Of a stretch of 64,000 nt of DNA, positions 1,986 to 11,332 are shown in pieces. The DNA is from Limnoglobus roseus (GTDB taxonomy: Bacteria; Planctomycetota; Planctomycetia; Gemmatales; Gemmataceae): positions 8,694,163 to 8,758,162 of the forward strand of contig NZ_CP042425.1 of the NCBI RefSeq assembly GCF_008254045.1, read 5' to 3'. The first letter of the stretch is position 1, and every line of letters begins with the position of its first letter. The notes beneath the pieces were generated by a model. That model had not been told where the DNA came from and ran no database searches. It was given only the letters and a program-made list of their open reading frames with translations. A program made the translations under genes and the position numbers.

Positions 1986-2218
1986 GAGTTCGTACCCGAA
2001 GCCCGTGTCGAACGCCAATTCCGGCCTCCGTATGCAACGCTCCAATGCGACCGTGTGAACCGCCCCAGTCATCGGCCACGGCCGGGGACCTCGTCCGGGG
2101 GTCGAGTGGCGGGCCCGGTCCGGCATCACCCCGTCGCGGTTCGCGTCCGGGCTCGCCGCCCAATTTTAGAATTCTTGCCACTTCCTCGCACCTCTTCGTC
2201 TCCGTTTTGCGAAGTAAG

Positions 2219-3126
2219 TAACGCGGTGTGCGAGTTTTGTCGGTGACGAGGCCGTCGAAGTCGAGCGGCGGTCGTCCGGCGGTGACGTTCAGCCAGGCCG
2301 CGATCGTGTGGCCCAAGACCTTGCGGATCACCCGGTGGCTCAGATGCCAAATGTCCCGCGCCCACGTCCGCTCGATGTGGAAGCGTCCGGCCAGTTGGCC
2401 GAACGCCGTCTCGATGATCCACCGGAACCGGCTGATCCGCCGCGACCGCCTCGGGCCCGGATCCTTCGACTTCGAGCGGAACGGGGCGACGAGTTTCACC
2501 CCTTGCTCGGCGAGTCGGGCGGCGGCCTTCGGGGACCAGTAGTTGCGGTCGCCCACGACGGCCGACCCGGGCGGCGGGCCGAGTGGATCGACCATCGCTT
2601 GGTCGGACACGTTGGCGGGAGCCAAGTCGAAGGCCACGAGGATGCCCGTCGGGGTGGCCCGGGCGTGGAACCGGAACCCGTACATGGTGTTCCGGCGGGT
2701 GTGGTCGTAGCCGAAGGCCGCGTCGCCGGCGAACCGGCGGCAGGACTTGGCCCGGCCGAAGGCACACGCGGGGACGGGCAGGCTGTCCACGATGAACACG
2801 CGATCCCAGACCGCCAGCCGCTCGGCCAAGTGGGCGTGGAGTTGCTTCTTCACGGCGAACAGGTTGGCGGCCTGGCGGGCGAAGGTGGTGCGGTGGACGC
2901 CGGCGAGGGCCGGGAACTCGGCCGCGTGGTACCGGCGGAAGTGGGCGAACAGCCCCTTGTCGTGGTCGAGACCGAGGAACTCGCCGGCGAGCTCGATGGT
3001 GATGAATTCGGGGTCCGTCATGGCCGTGTGCCGTGGCCCGCGGGACCGGAGCGGGGTGCGAACGAGTTGGCGGTACAGGTCATCGACCAAGACGAAGACG
3101 TGGAGTAGAAAGTCGTTGAGGGTCAC
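2219..3126 (-). CDS. IS982-family transposase without its own stop codon
   Basis: This is a DDE transposase of the IS982 type. Visible catalytic blocks are VFIVDSLPVPAC (first Asp), AVVGDRNYW (second Asp) and RWIIETAFGQL (Glu). The chosen start is GTG 3126, which gives the usual N-terminus LNDFLLHVFVLVDDLY. The frame enters the left inverted repeat and leaves the element inside a codon whose first two bases, TA, are the end of the IS. The next genomic base is C, giving TAC, so translation runs on into the kinase fragment to a stop at 1588. Had the target base been A or G, a stop would have formed. Confidence 0.8.
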
Positions 3127-3210
3127 GGCGGGTCCTCCGGCGGCGCGGGAGTGTGGCAACTCCACGATACCGACCCCGCCGCGGCCCCACCAAACTTGCA
3201 CACCGCGTTA
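2219..3210 (-). mobile_element. IS982-like insertion sequence, about 1 kb
   Basis: Terminal inverted repeats of 22 bp match at 20 positions: 3189-3210 on the + strand (core GCACACCGCGTTA) and the reverse complement of 2219-2240. They enclose a single transposase gene on the - strand. I see no convincing target duplication: the flanks are GAAGTAAG on the left and ACTAGGTA on the right. The left repeat overlaps the 3' end of the transposase reading frame. Loss of the duplication, together with the fused kinase fragment, suggests an old insertion or a later rearrangement. Confidence 0.75.
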
Positions 3211-3291
3211 ACTAGGTAGGGGGCCTTCTTCGCCCCCGTCAGCTCACCGGCCGCGCCGCGGAGGTTGCTGGAACACTCACTGGAGGTTCCC

Positions 3292-3498
3292 GTGCGACCC
3301 GACCTCGACCCCGCCCATTTTTCCCCGGACGATCGCTTCCGCGAACTCGCCGCCATCCTCGCCCGCGGCCTGATCCGCCTCCGCGACAAAGTCGCCCTCA
3401 CGCCCCGCCACACTTCTGCCCCGCAGATACTCCCGAAATCGAGCGATTCTTCCGTTGCAGTTCATCCCGACACGTGGCTCACTGTCCACACCGGTTAA
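3292..3498 (+). CDS. Small ORF preceding the DUF2924/recombinase module
   Basis: This is a 68-aa protein with a helical core, RFRELAAILARGLIRLRDK, and no recognised domain. From memory, planctomycete DUF2924/recombinase modules often carry such a small first gene. The GTG start at 3292 follows TGGAGG at 3281-3286 with 5 bp spacing; a TTG at 3265 is an alternative. It is followed at 42 bp by the DUF2924 gene on the same strand. The similarity is recalled and not searched. Confidence 0.5.
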   Translation: MRPDLDPAHFSPDDRFRELAAILARGLIRLRDKVALTPRHTSAPQILPKSSDSSVAVHPDTWLTVHTG

Positions 3499-3540
3499 CG
3501 GACCGGAGACGACCCCCATTCCCGCAACGAAGGAGACCCC

Positions 3541-4050
3541 ATGGACCCATACCCGACGATCGCGCAACAACTGGCCGCCCTGCCCCGGCTCACGGTGAAG
3601 GACCTGCAGCGGCGGTACGCCGAGGCGTTCGGCGACGAGACGGCCGCGCGGAACAAGGCGTGGCTCGTCAAGCGGATCGCCTGGAAGCTCCAGGCCAACG
3701 CCCACGGCGGGCTGACCGACCGCGCCCGCCAACGCGCGGCCGAGTTGGCCGCCGGGGCCGAACTCCGCACGACCATCCCGGCGAAGCGAGCGACGCCCGC
3801 GCCGGTCGCCGCCCCGGCCGAGCCCGAGGCCGCAACGCTCCCCTTCCCGGCGGACCGCCGACTACCCCCGCCGGGGTCCGTCCTCACCCGCGCGTACAAG
3901 GGCCAGACCCTCCAGGTGCGGGTGCTGACGCACGGGTTCGAGCACGCCGGCCTCGTCTACCCGTCCCTCTCCGCCGTCGCCAAGGCCGTGACCGGCAGCC
4001 ACTGCAACGGGTACCTGTTATTCCGACTCACGAACGGCGGTGACGCATGA
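3541..4050 (+). CDS. DUF2924 domain protein
   Basis: This 169-aa protein resembles the DUF2924 family, which usually lies directly before large serine recombinases in planctomycetes and proteobacterial prophage-like regions. Its biochemical role is unknown. The N-terminal half is helical (LKVKDLQRRYAEAFG-like segment, then NKAWLVKRIAWKLQ). The C-terminal half has the conserved block beginning PPPGSVLTRAYKGQ and ending with NGYLLFRL. AAGGAGA lies just upstream of the ATG. Its stop overlaps the recombinase start (ATGA at 4047-4050), so the two are translationally coupled. Confidence 0.8.
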   Translation: MDPYPTIAQQLAALPRLTVKDLQRRYAEAFGDETAARNKAWLVKRIAWKLQANAHGGLTDRARQRAAELAAGAELRTTIPAKRATPAPVAAPAEPEAATLPFPADRRLPPPGSVLTRAYKGQTLQVRVLTHGFEHAGLVYPSLSAVAKAVTGSHCNGYLLFRLTNGGDA

Positions 4051-5630
4051 CGAAGCGAGCCAAGGCCGCCGCCGACACCCGGCCCGTGGTCCGGTGCGCG
4101 ATCTACACGCGGAAGTCGAGCGAGGAAGGGCTCGAGCAGGAGTTCAACTCGCTGGACGCCCAGCGGGAGGCCGGCGAGGCGTACGTCCGCAGCCAGGCCG
4201 GCGAGGGGTGGACGTGCCTCGCGGAGAGGTACGACGACGGCGGGTTCACCGGCGGCAACACCGACCGCCCCGGCCTCCGCCGCCTCCTCCACGACATCGC
4301 CGCCGGCCGCGTCCACTGCGTCGTCGTGTACAAGGTCGACCGCCTGTCCCGGTCCCTCCTCGACTTCGCCGAGATGATGCGGACGTTCGAACAGCATCAG
4401 GTCGGGTTCGTGTCCGTCACCCAGCAGTTCAACACGGCCAGCTCCATGGGCCGGCTAGTCCTGAACGTGCTGCTGAGTTTCGCGCAGTTCGAGCGGGAGA
4501 TCGTCTCCGAACGCACCCGCGACAAGATCGCGGCCACCCGGCGGAAGGGCAAGTGGGCCGGCGGGTGGCCCGTCCTCGGGTACGACGTCGACCCGGCCGG
4601 GTTCAAACTCCGCGTCAACGACGCCGAGGCCGACCGCGTGCGGGCCGTCTACGGGCTCTACCTCGACCGCGGGTCCCTCCTCCCCGTCGTCGAGGAACTC
4701 GCGTCGCGGGGGTGGGCCAACAAGCGGTGGGAACTCCGCAAGGGCGGGTTCAAGGGCGGCGGCCCGTTCACCCGCACGTCCCTGTACGGCCTGCTCACCA
4801 ACCCCGTGTACGTCGGCAAGGTCCGGTACAAGGACGAGGTCCACGCCGGCGAGCACGCCGCGATCGTCGACCCGGCCGTGTGGCAGCGGGTCCAGGCCCA
4901 CCTGGCCGGGAACGGGCGGGGCGGCGGGTTCAGTCGCGGCGGCCCCGCCGCGTTGCTCAAGGGCGTTCTGCGGTGCACGGCGTGCGACGCCGCCATGTCG
5001 CCGACGAGCACGACCAAGGGGGCCAAGAGCTACCGGTACTACACGTGCACGGCCGCCGCCAAGAAGGGGTGGAAGACGTGCCCGGCCAAGTCCGTCCCCG
5101 CCCACTCGATCGAACAGGTCCTCCTCCGCCAGGTCCGGGCCATCGGCACCGACGCCCGCCTCCGCGGCGAGGTCCTCGCCCAGGCCCGAGCCCAAGACGA
5201 GGCCCGGACGGGGGAACTCGGGAAGGAGCAGAAGGCGTTGGAGCGCGACCTGACGGGCTGGCACGGCGAACTCCGGCACCTGTCCGGCCTCCTGCGGCCC
5301 GGCAACGGGAACGAGCCGGTCATCCGCCGCCTGGCCGAGCTCCAGGAGCGGATCGCGGCCGTCGAGGGCCGCGGCCGGGCGATCCGCGACCAGCTCGCCG
5401 TCGTCGGCCGGAACCTCATCGCCGACGACGACGCGGCGACCGCCCTGTCCGTGTTCGACCCCGTGTGGGAGGCGCTCAACCCGCGGGAGCAATCGCGGGT
5501 GGTCAACCTGCTGGTGGAGACGGTCGGGTACGACGGCGGGCGGGGGAAGGTGACCATCCGGTTCCGGTCGGCCGGCGTGCGGACGCTCGCCCGGGAACTG
5601 GCCGATAAACGCGAGGGGATGCGGGCATGA
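4047..5630 (+). CDS. Large serine recombinase
   Basis: The 527-aa protein has the layout of a large serine integrase or resolvase. A resolvase catalytic domain comes first, with CAIYTRKSSEEG carrying the nucleophilic Ser near residue 25, Arg in VVYKVDRLSRS, and RERTRDKI-like helices. The 'recombinase' DNA-binding domain follows, with TNPVYVGKVRYK. A zinc ribbon with CTACDAAM and a later YYTC...C, and a coiled region, complete it. It would integrate or excise DNA by site-specific strand exchange. It heads the accessory island and overlaps both neighbours by 4 bp, so the three genes form one operon. I could not find paired att sites. Confidence 0.9.
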   Translation: MTKRAKAAADTRPVVRCAIYTRKSSEEGLEQEFNSLDAQREAGEAYVRSQAGEGWTCLAERYDDGGFTGGNTDRPGLRRLLHDIAAGRVHCVVVYKVDRLSRSLLDFAEMMRTFEQHQVGFVSVTQQFNTASSMGRLVLNVLLSFAQFEREIVSERTRDKIAATRRKGKWAGGWPVLGYDVDPAGFKLRVNDAEADRVRAVYGLYLDRGSLLPVVEELASRGWANKRWELRKGGFKGGGPFTRTSLYGLLTNPVYVGKVRYKDEVHAGEHAAIVDPAVWQRVQAHLAGNGRGGGFSRGGPAALLKGVLRCTACDAAMSPTSTTKGAKSYRYYTCTAAAKKGWKTCPAKSVPAHSIEQVLLRQVRAIGTDARLRGEVLAQARAQDEARTGELGKEQKALERDLTGWHGELRHLSGLLRPGNGNEPVIRRLAELQERIAAVEGRGRAIRDQLAVVGRNLIADDDAATALSVFDPVWEALNPREQSRVVNLLVETVGYDGGRGKVTIRFRSAGVRTLARELADKREGMRA

Positions 5631-6050
5631 GTGAGAACGGCGTGTTGACCGTGGAGTGCGACGTGCACGTGGACCGGCGGGGGCGGGGGGGCGCGGAAGG
5701 AAGTGCTCCCGGGGCCCGACCCGCGGCGGGGCCAGCCGCCGGGCCGGGTGCCGCGGGTCGCCCGGTGGATGGCCCTCGCGATCCGGTGCGACGAACTCAT
5801 CCGCGACGGCGTGGTGGAGCGATACGCCGACCTGGCGGAGCTGGGGGATGTGTCGCGGGCCCGGGTCAGCCAGATCATGAACCTGTTGGGCCTCGCCCCG
5901 GACATCCAGGAGGCGGTGCTCCACTTGCCGCGGACGACGACCGGCCGTGACCCGATCCTCCTCCGCGACCTGCAGCCGATCGTCACCGCCCTCGACTGGG
6001 GGCGGCAGCGGAAATTGTGGCGGGCGTTGCGTTGCCGGCACGGCGGGTGA
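5627..6050 (+). pseudogene. HTH protein of the recombinase operon, frameshifted in a G7 run
   Basis: The gene starts at the ATG overlapping the recombinase stop and reads NGVLTVECDVHVDRRGRG. It then shifts frame in a run of seven G at 5685-5691. Removing one G joins this start to the downstream frame (ARKEVLPGPDPRR, then VARWMALAIRCDELI). The C-terminal part contains a helix-turn-helix-like stretch, DLAELGDVSRARVSQIMNLL, and GLAPDIQEAVLHLP, as in ParB- or sigma-like HTH domains. Full length would be about 140 aa. The shift may be a true mutation, a sequencing error in the homopolymer, or a slippage site. Confidence 0.65.
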
Positions 6051-6226
6051 CTGGGGAGCACGCGGACGCCGGTCCCGCCGTCGGCGCGGCGCGTGGCCGG
6101 GGGGGCCGCCCCCGGCGCCGCGTCCGGTTCGGGCACGGGGCGTCCGCCGGGGCGGGGCCGTTCGGGGCGGGGGTATGATCAGGTCGTGGGCCGCATCAGG
6201 TCGCGGCCGGCGGGGAGGGTGGCGTG

Positions 6227-6553
6227 ATGGTGGCGAGCGACAAGGCGGGTCTGTCCGCGCCGCGGCGGGCCCTGGTGGAATTGGTCCAGGAGCGGAACTT
6301 CGGCCGCGTCGAGCACCTCCCGGTCCGCGGCGGGGAGCCGGTCCTCGACCCGCCGCCGCGGGTCGTCCGGGAGGTCAAGCTGGGCGGGGAGAACGACCCC
6401 CGGCCGGAGCGGGCGTTGGCGAACTTCCGGCTGAAGCGGCAGTGGGTCGAGCTGTTCGAGTTGTTCGACGCGGTCGGGGACGGCACGGTCGACGTGCTCG
6501 AGTTCAAGAACGGTTTGCCGTTCAAGGCCCTCGTCGCCGACCCCGCCCGCTGA
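6227..6553 (+). CDS. Small conserved protein, function unknown
   Basis: This 108-aa protein has no catalytic motif I can name. Conserved-looking blocks are EPVLDPPPRVVREVKLGGEN and an acidic C-terminal half ending VLEFKNGLPFKALVAD. I recall similar small proteins near mobile DNA in Gemmata-type genomes, but cannot assign a function. A strong purine-rich site (GGGGAGGG at 6212-6219) precedes the ATG at 6227. A GTG at 6224 is also in frame. It ends 344 bp before the ParB-fusion gene. Confidence 0.55.
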   Translation: MVASDKAGLSAPRRALVELVQERNFGRVEHLPVRGGEPVLDPPPRVVREVKLGGENDPRPERALANFRLKRQWVELFELFDAVGDGTVDVLEFKNGLPFKALVADPAR

Positions 6554-6774
6554 CGGGTCCCGCCGACAGCGGGAAAGTCTCGCCTGGGCCGGCCGGCCGC
6601 GGCCCGCCGCTCGGACGGCCGCGGGCCGTGTTCGGCCGGGCGTCCCAAGTCGGGCGACGAATAGAGTGTGCCGCAGGCGCCCGCCGGCGGCGCCCCACAC
6701 CTCCCCGCGCGGCACCCCTCTGTTTCCGCACCCGCATCGCACACACCTCGGTCCGGTTGCGACCGCGGGCCCGC

Positions 6775-6825
6775 GGCGATAATATCGGCCCGAAAATTTT
6801 GATGGACATATTTACACTTGCGCCG
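6775..6825 (+). promoter_or_regulatory. AT-rich palindrome and likely promoter of the ParB-fusion operon
   Basis: A short AT-rich island stands out in very GC-rich DNA. It holds the perfect palindrome CGATAATATCG (6777-6787) and then AAAATTTTGATGGACATATTTACACTTG, here described by position 6792-6820. It lies 75-120 bp upstream of the first gene of the replication-type pair. Its placement suggests an operator and promoter; no transcription start can be read from sequence alone. The rest of 6554-6897 shows nothing else. Confidence 0.35.
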
Positions 6826-6897
6826 TAGCCTGTGAGCGGACTTGAACATTTTTCCACCCCACGCGCCCGGCCGGGCCGGGTCAACACCGGTGACGCC

Positions 6898-8385
6898 ATG
6901 ACCGACGAAGACGACGAAGTCGATGCGAACGATGAATGCGACGAGGGCGAAGAATCGGACGACGACGGGGGCGGGCCGGCGGCCGCGATCGTGCACTCGC
7001 TGGCCGTCGAGTGGGCCGCCCTCGAGGGCCTGACCCCGGCGGCCGTCAACGACCGGCTGTACCGGCCGGTCCGGGACGACGACCCGGGCGTCGTCGCCTT
7101 GGCCGAAGCGATGGGCCGGGACGGCGGCGTGCTCGAGCCCATCGTCGTCACTCTCGACCGGGTGGTCCTGTCCGGCCACCGCCGGCGGGCGGCCGCCCGC
7201 CTGGCCGGGTTCGACCCGGTGCCCGTCCGCGTGTACCCCATCTGGTCCGCCGACCCGGCCTTCGTCCGCCTACTCCGCACGTTCAACCAGCAGCGGGTGA
7301 AGACGTTCGACGAGCAGATCCGGGAGGCCGTCATCGACGCCGACCCGCACACCACCGCCCTCGAGGTCGAGGCGTACGAGGCCGAGCGGGACGCCACCTA
7401 CCGCCGCCGCGTGGCCGCGGCCGACATCGCCCCCATCGCCGTGACCGCGGCCCGCCGGCGGAACGACATCTCGGCGGCCAAGCGGCCGATGCTCGACGCC
7501 GTCATCCGGGTGGTCCAGGAGAACCGGGAGTACTGGCCGCTGTCCAACCGCCAGGTGCACTACCGGCTGCTCAACGACCCGCCGCTCAAGCACGCCCGCA
7601 AGCCGGGCAGCCGGTATCGCAACGACCTGGCGTCGTACAAGGACCTGTGCGACGTGCTGACCCGGGCCCGGCTGGCCGGGGTGGTGCCGTTCGACGCCAT
7701 CTCGGACACCACCCGGCCGAGCACCCAGTGGCGGAGCTGGGGCCACGCCCAGGCGTTCGTCCGGGAGGCGACGGCGAAGCTCCTGAGCGGGTACGCCCGG
7801 GACCCCCTTCAGTCCCAGCCGGCGTACGTCGAGGTGCTGGTCGAGAAGCTGACGGCCGAGACGCCGGTCGAGCGGGCGGCCGCCCCGTACCTGGTGCCGT
7901 ACTGCGTCGGCCGCGGGTACCCGTCGCTGGACGCCCGGTACCAGCTGGCCGAGCGGTTCCGGGCGTCCGGCAAGCGGCGGTTCGTGCTGCTGGTGCTCAG
8001 CGACTTCGACCCGGAGGGGGAGAACATCGCGGAGACGCTGTGCGCGTCCCTGCGGGACGAGTTCGACGTGCCCGACATCACCCCGTTCAAGGTGGCCCTG
8101 ACGGAGGACCAGGTCGGGCGATTCGGCCTGGTGCCGAGCATGGAGGTGAAGCGGTCGTCGAGCCGGGCCAAGGGTTTCGTCGGCAAGCACGGCAGCCAGG
8201 TGTACGAGCTGGAGGCCCTGCCGCCGGCCCGGCTGCAGCAGCTGGTGACGGACGCCATCGAGTCGGTGCTCGACCTCGGGGCGTACCGCCGGGAGCGGGC
8301 GGAGGAGGCCCGCGAACTCCAGGAGTTGGTGGCCCGCCGGCGGGTGCTGCTCGACGCCGTCGGCGGCCTGGGGGGCGGGGCGTGA
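6898..8385 (+). CDS. ParB-domain protein fused to a Spo11/topoisomerase VI-A-like core
   Basis: This 495-aa protein starts at ATG 6898, just before an acidic tract of about 25 residues. Residues about 30-125 are a ParB/Srx-like domain with LSGHRRRAAARLAG at 91-104. Residues about 200-285 look like a winged helix, PLSNRQVHYRLL, followed by LTRARLAGVVPFDAISDTTR. Tyr222 sits where Spo11/TopoVI-A enzymes have the catalytic Tyr (R-x-x-x-Y pattern). Residues about 308-400 resemble a Toprim fold: Glu at 312 or 316 in VEVLVEKL and the DxD of LSDFDPEGEN at 369-371. The C-terminus is a charged helix. The gene overlaps the primase gene by 4 bp. The ParB call is firm; the Spo11-like call is inference from motif order. 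Confidence 0.75.
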   Translation: MTDEDDEVDANDECDEGEESDDDGGGPAAAIVHSLAVEWAALEGLTPAAVNDRLYRPVRDDDPGVVALAEAMGRDGGVLEPIVVTLDRVVLSGHRRRAAARLAGFDPVPVRVYPIWSADPAFVRLLRTFNQQRVKTFDEQIREAVIDADPHTTALEVEAYEAERDATYRRRVAAADIAPIAVTAARRRNDISAAKRPMLDAVIRVVQENREYWPLSNRQVHYRLLNDPPLKHARKPGSRYRNDLASYKDLCDVLTRARLAGVVPFDAISDTTRPSTQWRSWGHAQAFVREATAKLLSGYARDPLQSQPAYVEVLVEKLTAETPVERAAAPYLVPYCVGRGYPSLDARYQLAERFRASGKRRFVLLVLSDFDPEGENIAETLCASLRDEFDVPDITPFKVALTEDQVGRFGLVPSMEVKRSSSRAKGFVGKHGSQVYELEALPPARLQQLVTDAIESVLDLGAYRRERAEEARELQELVARRRVLLDAVGGLGGGA

Positions 8386-9623
8386 CGGCGGCCCTGACGA
8401 CCAGGGACTACTTGCAGGCCGCCCTGTGGTACCGGTCGTGGGGGTGGGCGTGCCTGCCGGTGTCGCACGCCGTCGCGGACAAGCGGCCGACGGTCCGGTG
8501 GAAGGCCCTCCAGCGGCGGAAGCCGACGGACCGGGAGCTCGGCCGCCTGTTCGCCGTCCGGCCGGACCGGGTGACCGGGCTGGCGGTGCTGCTCGGGCGG
8601 GCGTCCGGCGGGCCGCCGGCCGGGTGCCTGGCGTGCCGGGACTTCGACGCGGCGGCGGCGTACTTCCGGTGGGCGAGCCTCCGGCCGCGGCTGGCCGCCG
8701 CCCTGCCCACGGTCCGGACGCGGCGGGGGTTCCACGTGTACTGCTACCTGCCGGCCGAGGTGTTCGTCGACTTCGGGCCGGGGGACGGGGACCTGCGGTG
8801 CGTCGCGACGCGGTACGCCGTGCTCCCGCCGTCGGCCCACCCGTCGGGCGTGCGGTACGCCTGGGTGCGGGGCGACCCGGCCCGCCCGGACTTCCCGCTC
8901 CTGACCGTCGAGGCGACCGGTTTCCTGGCCGACCGGGCGGACAAGGCGCGGTCGCCCGGTCGGCCGCGCACAGCCCTCACACCTGCGGCCCAACCCGCCC
9001 GGAAGGCGGATAAAGACAAAGATCTCTTGTGTCCGCCCCGGGGCGTTTCGGACGCGGCCGGCGGGTCGCCCGGACCGGACGCGCGGTGGGCGTCGCTGCC
9101 GGCCGCGGAACGGGAGGCGGTCCTCAAGACGCTGCCGCGGCGGGCCGGAGAACGGCACCGCCGCTTGTTCGAGCTCGCCCGCCGGCTGGCCGACGTGCGG
9201 CCGGGCGTCCCGGCGGGCCACTGGGCTGGCGTCGTGCGGGCGTGGTGGCGGCGGGCGGAGCCGGTCGTCCGGACGAAGGACTGGGCGGTGACGTGGGCGG
9301 ACTTCCGGGCCGCGTGGGGGCGGGTTCGCACGCCGGCGAGCCGGTCCCCGCCGGCGGTCGCGTTGGCGGCGGCCCGTGGGGCGGACGTGCCCCCGCGGGA
9401 CCGACTCCGACTGGCTTGCCGTTCGCTGGCCGGCCTGACGGGCGGGACGTTCTACCTGTCGGCCCGTGGGGCGGCGGCGGCGACCGGGCTGGGAAAGACG
9501 CGGGCGGCCGAACTCTTGGCCGGACTCGTGGCGGCCGGCGAACTGATCGTCCGCGTGCCGGGCCGGCGGTCGGCGTCCGCCCGGCTGGCCACCCGGTACG
9601 CCCTCGGGTCGCTCGGCGACTGA
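8382..9623 (+). CDS. Primase-polymerase (Prim-Pol domain)
   Basis: This 413-aa protein starts at GTG 8382 inside the preceding stop (GTGA). The N-terminal 165 residues match the bifunctional primase/polymerase domain of plasmids and phages. They contain YRSWGWACLPVSH, GLAVLLG at 66-72, the acidic pair in CRDFD (87 and 89), RRGFHVY at 114-120 with the motif His, and YAVLPPSAHPSGVRYAW. The C-terminal part holds a helical region and a winged-helix-like end (LSARGAAAATGLGKTRAAELL). It would prime DNA replication. Its coupling to the ParB fusion and the palindromes just downstream suggest a replication module. Confidence 0.85.
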   Translation: MTAALTTRDYLQAALWYRSWGWACLPVSHAVADKRPTVRWKALQRRKPTDRELGRLFAVRPDRVTGLAVLLGRASGGPPAGCLACRDFDAAAAYFRWASLRPRLAAALPTVRTRRGFHVYCYLPAEVFVDFGPGDGDLRCVATRYAVLPPSAHPSGVRYAWVRGDPARPDFPLLTVEATGFLADRADKARSPGRPRTALTPAAQPARKADKDKDLLCPPRGVSDAAGGSPGPDARWASLPAAEREAVLKTLPRRAGERHRRLFELARRLADVRPGVPAGHWAGVVRAWWRRAEPVVRTKDWAVTWADFRAAWGRVRTPASRSPPAVALAAARGADVPPRDRLRLACRSLAGLTGGTFYLSARGAAAATGLGKTRAAELLAGLVAAGELIVRVPGRRSASARLATRYALGSLGD

Positions 9624-9630
9624 AGGGCCT

Positions 9631-9773
9631 CGAATCCCGAACATGTCCGGGATTCGGGCAGACGCGGGTCGCACGCCGAAAACCCGATCATGTCCGGGTT
9701 TCAGGTGAGGCGCCGGAAGCGAACAGCCGGGGGGCTCACGCGGGAGAACCCGATCATGTCCGGGTTCTCCCGC
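9631..9773. repeat. Three palindromes with one core, candidate iterons or ParB/primase binding sites
   Basis: Site 1 (9631-9656) has arms CGAATCCCG and CGGGATTCG around AACATGTC. Site 2 (9680-9701) has arms AAACCCG and CGGGTTT around ATCATGTC. Site 3 (9740-9773) has 13-bp arms GCGGGAGAACCCG and CGGGTTCTCCCGC around ATCATGTC. All share CCCGA(A/T)CATGTCCGGG. Centres are 47 and 66 bp apart. They begin 8 bp after the primase stop, in a 530-bp stretch without a gene. The outer arms differ in sequence yet stay complementary, which argues for selection on the inverted symmetry. One site may also act as a terminator. I saw no further copy in the window. Confidence 0.75.
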
Positions 9774-10153
9774 CGGCCTTGATTTCGCAGCCGACTGGCC
9801 CGGTCGTTTGCGCGAAAGAGCGGTCGCCGTGAACACCACGAGCGGCGACCGTGGCCTCCGCTAGCCGGCATTCGTCGGCCGCCCGGCCCGCACGATTTCA
9901 CGGGTCCTTCCTGGCGACTTTCAGTGTTGCCCCCACGCGGAAAGGTCCAACTGTTAGACAGACTTTATTTCTTCAGCCCCCGCCCCCAACCGCCGACACG
10001 TTCGCCAGTTGTGCGGTCATGTGGCCTGTGGTAGAATCCCTTCAGCAACTCGCCGCACGTCCTTGTGGGAGGACGGGGTGGCGGGCCGGCGGCCAAGCAC
10101 CCGGCATCACGGCCGGGCCGAACGAACGTCCCTGTTCCTTCGAGGCCCCGCCG

Positions 10154-11332
10154 ATGCTCGTCCAGATGCGCGACATCTCCTCCATCACCCCATACGAACA
10201 CAACCCCCGGATCAACGCCGCCGCCGTCGACCCCGTCGCCGAGTCCATCGCCACGTTCGGGTGGCAGCAGCCGCTCGTTTTGGACGCCCACGGCGTCATC
10301 GTCGTCGGCCACACGCGGTACAAGGCCGCCCTCAAGCTCGGCCTGACCGTCGTGCCCGTGCACGTCGCCGCCGATCTGACGCCGGCCCAGGCCCGGGCGT
10401 ACCGCCTGGCCGACAACCGCACCGCCGCCATCGCCACGTGGGACGACGGCAAACTGGTGGCCGAGCTGCTCGCCCTCCAGGGCACCGACGTCGACCTCGC
10501 GTCCATCGGGTTCACGGCCGACGAACTGGCCGACCTGCTGAAAGCCGACGAGCCCGCACATCCCGGCGACCCGGACGCCGTCCCCGATCCGCCGGCCGAA
10601 CCCGTCACCCGCCCGGGCGACCTGTGGCTCCTCGGCCGCCACCGCCTCCTGTGCGGCGACGCCACCAACCCCGCCGACCTGGCGAAGGTCCTCGATGGCG
10701 CCCCGGCCGACCTGCTCCTCACCGACCCGCCGTACAACGTCGCCTACGAGGGGAAGACGGCCGACCGGCTGACCATCGCCAACGACGCCATGGCCGGGGA
10801 CGACTACCGCCGGTTCCTCGCCCGCGCCCTGGCCGCGGCCAAGGGCGTCCTCCGCCCGGGGGCGGGATTCTACCTGTGGCACGCCGACCTCGAGGGGCTC
10901 ACGGTGCGAACCGCCTGTGTCGACGCCGGCCTCCATGTCCGCCAGTGCCTCGTCTGGGTCAAGTCGGCGTTCGCCCTCGGCCGGTTCGACTACCACTGGC
11001 GGCACGAGCCGTGCCTGTACGGGTGGGCCGACGGGGCCGCCCACACCTGGCTCTCCGACCGCGCCCAGACGACCGTCCTCGAATTCGACCGCCCCGCCAA
11101 GAACGACGTCCACCCGACCATGAAGCCCGTCGGCCTGTTCGCCTACCTGATCGGCAACTCGTGCCACGCGGGCGGCGTCGTCCTCGACCCGTTCGCCGGG
11201 TCCGGGACCACCCTCGTCGCGAGTGAACACACGGGACGAACGGCCGCCCTCGTCGAACTCGACCCGCGGTACTGCGACGTCATCTGCACCAGGTGGCGCG
11301 TGATGACCGGAAAGGAGGCCGTCCGTGGGTAA
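10154..11332 (+). CDS. ParB-domain DNA methyltransferase (N6-adenine/N4-cytosine type)
   Basis: This 392-aa protein starts at ATG 10154. Residues 1-95 are a ParB-like domain (EHNPRIN, VVGHTRYKAALKLG, RLADNRTA). After a Pro-rich linker comes GRHRLLCGDAT and a methyltransferase with the catalytic DPPY at 191-194 and, near the C-terminus, the SAM-binding LDPFAGSGTTLVA. Motif order (DPPY before FAGSGTT) is the beta class. Such fusions are common in phages and integrated elements, where they modify element or host DNA without a paired restriction enzyme. No restriction gene is adjacent. AAAGGAGG near its 3' end serves the next gene, which overlaps it. Confidence 0.88.
   Translation: MLVQMRDISSITPYEHNPRINAAAVDPVAESIATFGWQQPLVLDAHGVIVVGHTRYKAALKLGLTVVPVHVAADLTPAQARAYRLADNRTAAIATWDDGKLVAELLALQGTDVDLASIGFTADELADLLKADEPAHPGDPDAVPDPPAEPVTRPGDLWLLGRHRLLCGDATNPADLAKVLDGAPADLLLTDPPYNVAYEGKTADRLTIANDAMAGDDYRRFLARALAAAKGVLRPGAGFYLWHADLEGLTVRTACVDAGLHVRQCLVWVKSAFALGRFDYHWRHEPCLYGWADGAAHTWLSDRAQTTVLEFDRPAKNDVHPTMKPVGLFAYLIGNSCHAGGVVLDPFAGSGTTLVASEHTGRTAALVELDPRYCDVICTRWRVMTGKEAVRG

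Follow-up and report, generated by a model that had tools for sequence, protein, structure and literature searches.

A predicted fusion of a ParB/CTPase-fold domain with a Mini-A core in integrated mobile elements of several bacterial phyla

We describe a gene of Limnoglobus roseus whose product combines a ParB/CTPase-fold N-domain with a Mini-A core, an undescribed domain combination. Dozens of elements, from several bacterial phyla, carry it intact. We hold this assignment of the two domains with high confidence. Type IIB topoisomerases are driven by an ATPase subunit. A stable family that joins a ParB clamp to Mini-A points to a testable answer to how Mini-A proteins would function in its absence, since the fusion could be a DNA-cleaving enzyme switched by nucleotide. 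If this is true, the ParB-CTPase switch would extend from segregation to the control of DNA breakage.

Results

The fusion gene and its product

The gene lies in a stretch of 64,000 nucleotides of the L. roseus genome, hereafter the window, whose features are collected in Table 1. We took the ATG at 6898 as the start, with an alternative GTG at 6832 in the same frame. The N-domain spans approximately residues 37-150 and the Mini-A domain approximately residues 186-495. All motifs on which a first-pass annotation had based its reading of the protein were located in the translation at the residues it gave: SGHRRRAAARLAG at residues 92-104, NRQVHYRLL with Tyr222, VEVLVEKL with E312 and E316, and LSDFDPEGEN with D369 and D371. 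Beyond the window protein, 47 full-length fusions were collected (48 in total). An assembly artefact or a chance fusion is ruled out by these 47 cases, which keep Y222, E312, E316, D369, D371, G93 and R96 without exception, and by the single group that the sampled fusions form in a tree (see below).

Table 1. Features of the fusion gene and of neighboring genes, in window coordinates
Feature	Position	Strand	Evidence
DUF2924 protein paired with recombinase	3541..4050	+	PF11149 7e-38; same pair in L035, L036, L039
Large serine recombinase/integrase of the element	4047..5630	+	PF00239 2e-36; phrog_95 integrase 4e-109; also near relatives L035, L036, L039
HTH protein, phrog_14161	5703..6050	+	E 2e-16; alongside recombinase in L036, L039
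ParB-Mini-A fusion protein	6898..8385	+	495 aa; ORF and translation, 47 full-length homologues of the same architecture, second identical copy
ParB/CTPase-fold N-domain (residues 37-150)	7006..7347	+	profile to 6sdk; Foldseek to ParB-CDP; relatives above PF02195 cut-off
P motif GHRR (residues 93-96), counterpart of ParB GERR	7174..7185	+	alignment to ParB/Spo0J; G93, R96 48/48, H94 47/48
NQQR (residues 130-133), counterpart of NLQR in ParB ENLQR	7285..7296	+	N130, R133 48/48; Q132 45/48
Winged-helix/5Y-CAP-like stretch (~residues 186-267)	7453..7698	+	AF2 helices 193-208, 217-226, 244-259 at pLDDT >90
Tyr222, predicted DNA-attacking tyrosine	7561..7563	+	invariant in 48/48 fusions, 7/7 standalones
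Predicted Toprim domain (~residues 308-400)	7819..8097	+	AF2 alternating strands and helices; TOP6A-Spo11_Toprim, Toprim, DUF2399 matches in relatives; top PDB fold match 9o0g
Toprim Glu316	7843..7845	+	invariant in fusions and standalones
Toprim D369-x-D371	8002..8010	+	invariant in fusions and standalones
Lys418, in stretch equivalent to topo VI-A DLPTHPLK	8149..8151	+	invariant; aligned to 1d3y
Prim-Pol primase-polymerase, directly downstream	8382..9623	+	PF09250 E 7e-12
ParB-domain DNA methyltransferase, phage type	10145..11332 (start estimated from homologous part of ORF 9851-11332)	+	phrog_498 E 2e-149; PF01555 1e-20 (whole ORF)

The C-terminal half belongs to the Mini-A subfamily

By homology, the C-terminal half is a Mini-A protein. 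Among the A subunits of type IIB topoisomerases, Mini-A is the subfamily of phages and plasmids. The family phrog_6247, 'DNA topoisomerase', covers residues 240-476 (E 2e-36), and phage NP1 was matched by tblastn over residues 205-463 (E 1e-17, 28.7%). The assignment follows from this match because Pseudomonas phage NP1 is the example of Mini-A in the figure of a review, for which Mini-A proteins are bacteriophage and archaeovirus homologues of Top6A in truncated form (PMC7614492).

Nine residues show no variation among the 48 fusions and seven standalone relatives: R218, Y222, E316, G340, S343, D369, D371, G374 and K418. Five of them (Y222, E316, D369, D371 and K418) are also invariant in a 56-row alignment (A4), and Tyr222 in all 14 rows of a further one (A3). 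Conservation of Tyr222 and of the DxD pair among homologues, on which the first-pass annotation had staked its reading, is complete in the fusions; a profile match, which it had asked for as well, was also obtained (see below). The Toprim set that it had proposed, E312/E316 with D369/D371, stood in part: E316, D369 and D371 are kept in fusions and standalones, whereas E312 is invariant in the 48 fusions only. Since the standalones keep E316 but not E312, we take E316 to be the Toprim glutamate.

The Spo11/TopoVI-A-like core recognized at first pass is therefore homologous to phage Mini-A; the deeper link to topo VI-A and Spo11 is remote and comes from several weak but concordant results. With a profile of standalone relatives plus the window protein, the topo VI-A structure 1d3y was the only PDB chain reached (E 0.03), and the alignment places TLRxxYY of the winged-helix stretch, D-x-DP-x-G and DLPxxPxK in register. 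Individual relatives match TP6A_N, in the winged-helix stretch, and TOP6A-Spo11_Toprim, both at about 2e-3. Structure prediction, proposed as a check, agreed: an AlphaFold model of residues 186-495 (pLDDT 94.7, pTM 0.88) has as its top match among 350,542 PDB chains the entry 9o0g, M. mazei topo VI-A in a DNA-cleavage state, though the match is weak (probability 1.00, E 5e-3, TM 0.33).

Relatives were needed to see this link, as single-protein Pfam and NCBIfam scans of the window protein returned no topoisomerase family and its Mini-A core matched no Pfam family at threshold. When a smaller alignment was compared by hhalign with three archaeal topo VI-A sequences, E was 1e-3 at 20% probability, against a template profile of three similar rows; a larger alignment gave nothing useful against the same three sequences, nor did it reach any chain when used as a profile against the PDB. 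A scan of viral sequences with an 88-residue piece found no true topo VI-A. As the query was the full-length model, ParB-domain proteins made up most of the matches in a BFVD fold search.

The N-domain has a ParB/CTPase fold

That the N-domain is of ParB type, as first called from its motif, was borne out by sequence profile and by fold. The family profile matches ParB/Spo0J (6sdk, E 1e-9), Noc, pNOB8-like ParB and sulfiredoxin, and the full-length AlphaFold model (pLDDT 87.4, pTM 0.65) matched ParB bound to CDP in Foldseek (7bnk and 6sdk, E 7e-5). Scanned alone against Pfam and NCBIfam, the window protein gave sub-threshold ParB matches; several relatives pass the Pfam ParB_N cut-off (PF02195), including those at loci L080 (6e-11) and L089 (3e-8).

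Two ParB motifs have recognizable counterparts in the fusions (Table 1), and K135 is invariant in all 48. The Glu that precedes NLQR in the ENLQR motif of ParB is not kept, position 129 being Y, H, F or C. CTP hydrolysis by ParB uses this Glu together with the Gln of the YQPR motif, which is likewise not conserved in the fusion N-domain. Because neither hydrolysis residue is conserved, the domain may bind nucleotide without hydrolyzing it, or may not bind it at all.

In the AF2 model, the ParB helices (121-173) pass straight to the 5Y-CAP helices, the next of which begins at 193. As the former end near 173 and the winged helix starts at 193, the central HTH with which ParB reads parS is absent from the window protein, and by the same element order so is the C-terminal dimer domain. 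A sub-architecture in which an HTH stands N-terminal to the ParB domain was seen at four loci (L036 9817-11421, L047 9764-11335, L089 9488-11398 and L094 7673-9598); there, the HTH could supply a sequence specificity that has no counterpart in the window protein. Inverted and direct repeats are abundant near the window gene but look like high-GC chance, and we claim no parS-like site among them.

Distribution and origin of the fusions

Fusion loci were found in Planctomycetota, Verrucomicrobiota, Lentisphaerota, deltaproteobacterial and betaproteobacterial genomes and in IMG/VR contigs. Nearly all of these genomes are MAGs, and host names are provisional because many of the loci lie on MAG contigs. 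In an even sample of the planctomycete phylum, the full fusion occurred in 4 of 392 genomes, a rarity that suits an accessory mobile gene. We placed 63 Mini-A domains in a maximum-likelihood tree, where the 30 fusions formed one group with 100/100 support, which needs a single change and spans five or more phyla; the nearest named relative of the window protein was a Fimbriiglobus sp. MAG of Gemmataceae. From this grouping we conclude that the pairing of ParB with Mini-A is, as far as sequences tell, maintained across phyla. The fusions probably go back to one fusion event followed by horizontal spread, although the tree cannot prove a single origin. The copy in Accumulibacter phosphatis (L096 10001-11241) is probably a broken gene, since it was matched in three separate pieces, the best of them in a 188-codon open frame.

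Standalone homologues were detected by tblastn in 66 phage records, among them Nipunavirus PaMx25, NP1, Chi-like SPN19, Brevundimonas Delta and Flavobacterium FPSV, and in 30 plasmid records. Many Streptomyces plasmids, and plasmids of Vibrio, Paenibacillus and Cupriavidus, carry standalone Mini-A genes annotated as hypothetical proteins.

The fusion genes sit in integrated mobile elements

The mobile elements that carry the fusion genes are integrated ones, be they prophages, satellites or integrative plasmids. The first-pass annotation had proposed that the protein may be an initiator or a nicking or segregation enzyme of an integrated replicon; of these roles, the gene context favors a part in a replication module. 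The gene order in the window is DUF2924, large serine recombinase, HTH, EF-hand-like ORF, fusion, Prim-Pol, ParB-methyltransferase and endonuclease-like ORF. The coupling to a primase-polymerase noted at first pass held, the GTG start of Prim-Pol overlapping the stop codon of the fusion. A Prim-Pol homologue lies directly downstream in nine other fusion loci (ten with the window), including those of betaproteobacteria, and other loci have D5-type primase-helicase, DnaB-like AAA, DUF3987 or Toprim-primase genes downstream; at L080, a small terminase and an integrase follow. Homologues of the ParB-methyltransferase also occur near fusion relatives. As lower bounds from tblastn, in raw counts without background control, an integrase is present in at least 27 of 46 loci and a primase or helicase in at least 21 of 46. 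In the PaMx25 and Delta genomes, the standalone relatives lie among genes for primase, ligase, helicase, thymidylate synthase and annealing proteins.

Upstream of the fusion, the DUF2924, recombinase and HTH genes (window 3541-6050) travel together in several planctomycete elements (L036, L039), also with standalone Mini-A. The EF-hand-like ORF (6224-6553) between the HTH gene and the fusion matches PF13405 below the cut-off (3.5e-4) and is identical in a second copy of the region.

This second copy is found in the same genome, a single contig of 9.38 Mb, about 76 kb upstream. Its fusion gene (G000:C1:8625471-8626955) is identical over 1,488 bp and lies inside a duplicated block that spans 7.8 kb with 98% identity overall (window 2171-9965 versus G000:C1:8620745-8628540, or L040 6746-14541). 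The block is a mosaic: the fusion gene has not a single difference, 3250-5000 and 6250-9500 have almost none, and more than 100 crowd into 5000-6000, which holds the recombinase C-terminus and the HTH gene; this pattern suggests recombination or a different attachment specificity. Between Prim-Pol and the ParB-methyltransferase, the second copy has about 4.8 kb (L040 14541-19359) that is missing from the window copy and reads as chromosomal genes, for a HEAT-repeat protein, a prepilin-like protein, a sensor kinase and a response regulator.

Discussion

Proposed activity of the fusion

The reading we favor, to which we give an even chance, is that the protein serves the replication module by cleaving DNA through a tyrosine, with the ParB fold as a nucleotide-operated gate. 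Two chains would dimerize through their Toprim domains, as in topo VI and MksG, and Tyr222, with a divalent metal at E316, D369 and D371, would break the element DNA, transiently or in a programmed way, through a 5'-phosphotyrosyl link. Nucleotide binding by the ParB domains would open or close a clamp around the DNA, so that the ParB fold would take the place of the GHKL ATPase gate (TopoVI-B), which is missing from Mini-A. The enzyme would manage DNA topology, or initiate the opening of strands, while the element replicates. More tentatively, and below an even chance, the protein could be a topoisomerase-like enzyme whose DNA gate is run by a ParB-type clamp (using CTP or another NTP) instead of a GHKL ATPase. 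With similar reserve, such a replacement of the gate could be seen as another way to power or time type II-like DNA cleavage, born once by fusion and spread on mobile elements.

The host genome gave 0 matches to TopoVI-A (PF21180) and 0 to TopoVI-B (PF09239) in searches whose controls worked; topoisomerase VI is defined as A2B2 with an A subunit over the PF21180 cut-off, and the fusion falls outside this definition. The lack of a strand-passage (B) subunit would also suit a Spo11-like double-strand-break or nicking enzyme, a rather doubtful reading in which the ParB clamp brings the Mini-A core to the origin or attachment region of the element and recombination-dependent replication or excision then begins from a single-turnover break, with no strand passage. 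Standalone relatives adjoin Sak4 annealing and exonuclease genes, integrases are frequent neighbors, and the N-terminal HTH of some relatives could target DNA. The replication-wide gene sets of the standalone Mini-A phages, however, fit topology control equally, and the surroundings of the window gene yielded no conserved target site.

A chain that combines a ParB fold, its P motif kept, with a topoisomerase-like domain could also be a partition or segregation protein, in which a ParB-type clamp works with a decatenase domain to separate sister copies of the element. We consider this unlikely: the parS-reading HTH is missing from the window protein, no ParA-type gene was found in 22 loci by a simple Walker pattern ([KR]GGx[GA]K[ST], ORFs >150 codons), and the elements carry integrases and reside in chromosomes.

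The related Toprim fold and weak DUF2399 and JetD_C matches in relatives bring to mind a nuclease like JetD or MksG that would cut competing DNA in defence or counter-defence. This, too, is improbable, as the gene sits in a replication/integration module and the CAP-domain tyrosine, missing from JetD (PMC10586767) and from MksG (PMC10123090), is invariant in the fusions; its invariance in fusions and standalones alike led us to reject a JetD-type reading. It is very improbable that the protein is a ParB-controlled DNA-binding regulator with a catalytically inactive Mini-A core, for although no Mini-A activity is documented in the literature searched, and we infer cleavage, religation and gating by the fusion, none of the five catalytic-type residues varies over 48 divergent fusions.

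Comparison with known systems

The fusions resemble Mini-A in their homologous C-terminal half, in the invariant Tyr, the Toprim Glu and DxD and the K418 stretch, in carriage by mobile elements and in a host genome with no B subunit gene. They differ in that Mini-A, as described, is an A subunit that is truncated and stands alone, whereas the fusions carry a ParB/CTPase-fold domain in front of it and are a deep branch of their own in the tree. The founding Mini-A paper, Takahashi et al. 2020, reportedly described a C-terminal motif specific to the subfamily.

With topo VI-A and Spo11, the fusions share the order of a winged helix with Tyr followed by Toprim, the TLRxxYY, DxDPxG and DLPxxPxK register and the top PDB fold match. 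The likeness is remote, and the fusions have no TopoVI-B, no Pfam TOP6A match and a different N-terminal part. The N-domain has the fold, the P motif (GxRR) and the box III NxQR of the ParB and Noc CTPases of ParABS systems, but GHRR replaces GERR, the hydrolysis Gln and Glu are unconserved, and the HTH, the C-terminal dimerization domain and, in 22 loci, a ParA neighbor are absent. The Wadjet nucleases JetD and MksG have the CAP-type winged helix and Toprim as well; Tyr222 and the ParB domain of the fusions are found in neither, and the missing CAP tyrosine sets the fusion family apart from them.

A ParB fold joined to an enzymatic domain in mobile elements is also what a PNAS 2025 survey of ParB-CTPase fusions describes in its main text, with HNH, methyltransferase, DUF3850 and others as partners; topoisomerase and Toprim are absent from that main text, and the partner domains considered there were Pfam domains, of which the Mini-A core matches none at threshold (PMC12704722). 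The first-pass annotation had known of no ParB fusion of this kind, and our full-text literature search likewise gave no description of Mini-A with ParB, or of ParB fused to topoisomerase VI or Spo11, though Takahashi et al. 2020 or supplements might mention one. Mini-A itself and ParB-CTPase fusions to other enzymes were already known; what appears to be new is a ParB/CTPase-fold domain joined to Mini-A.
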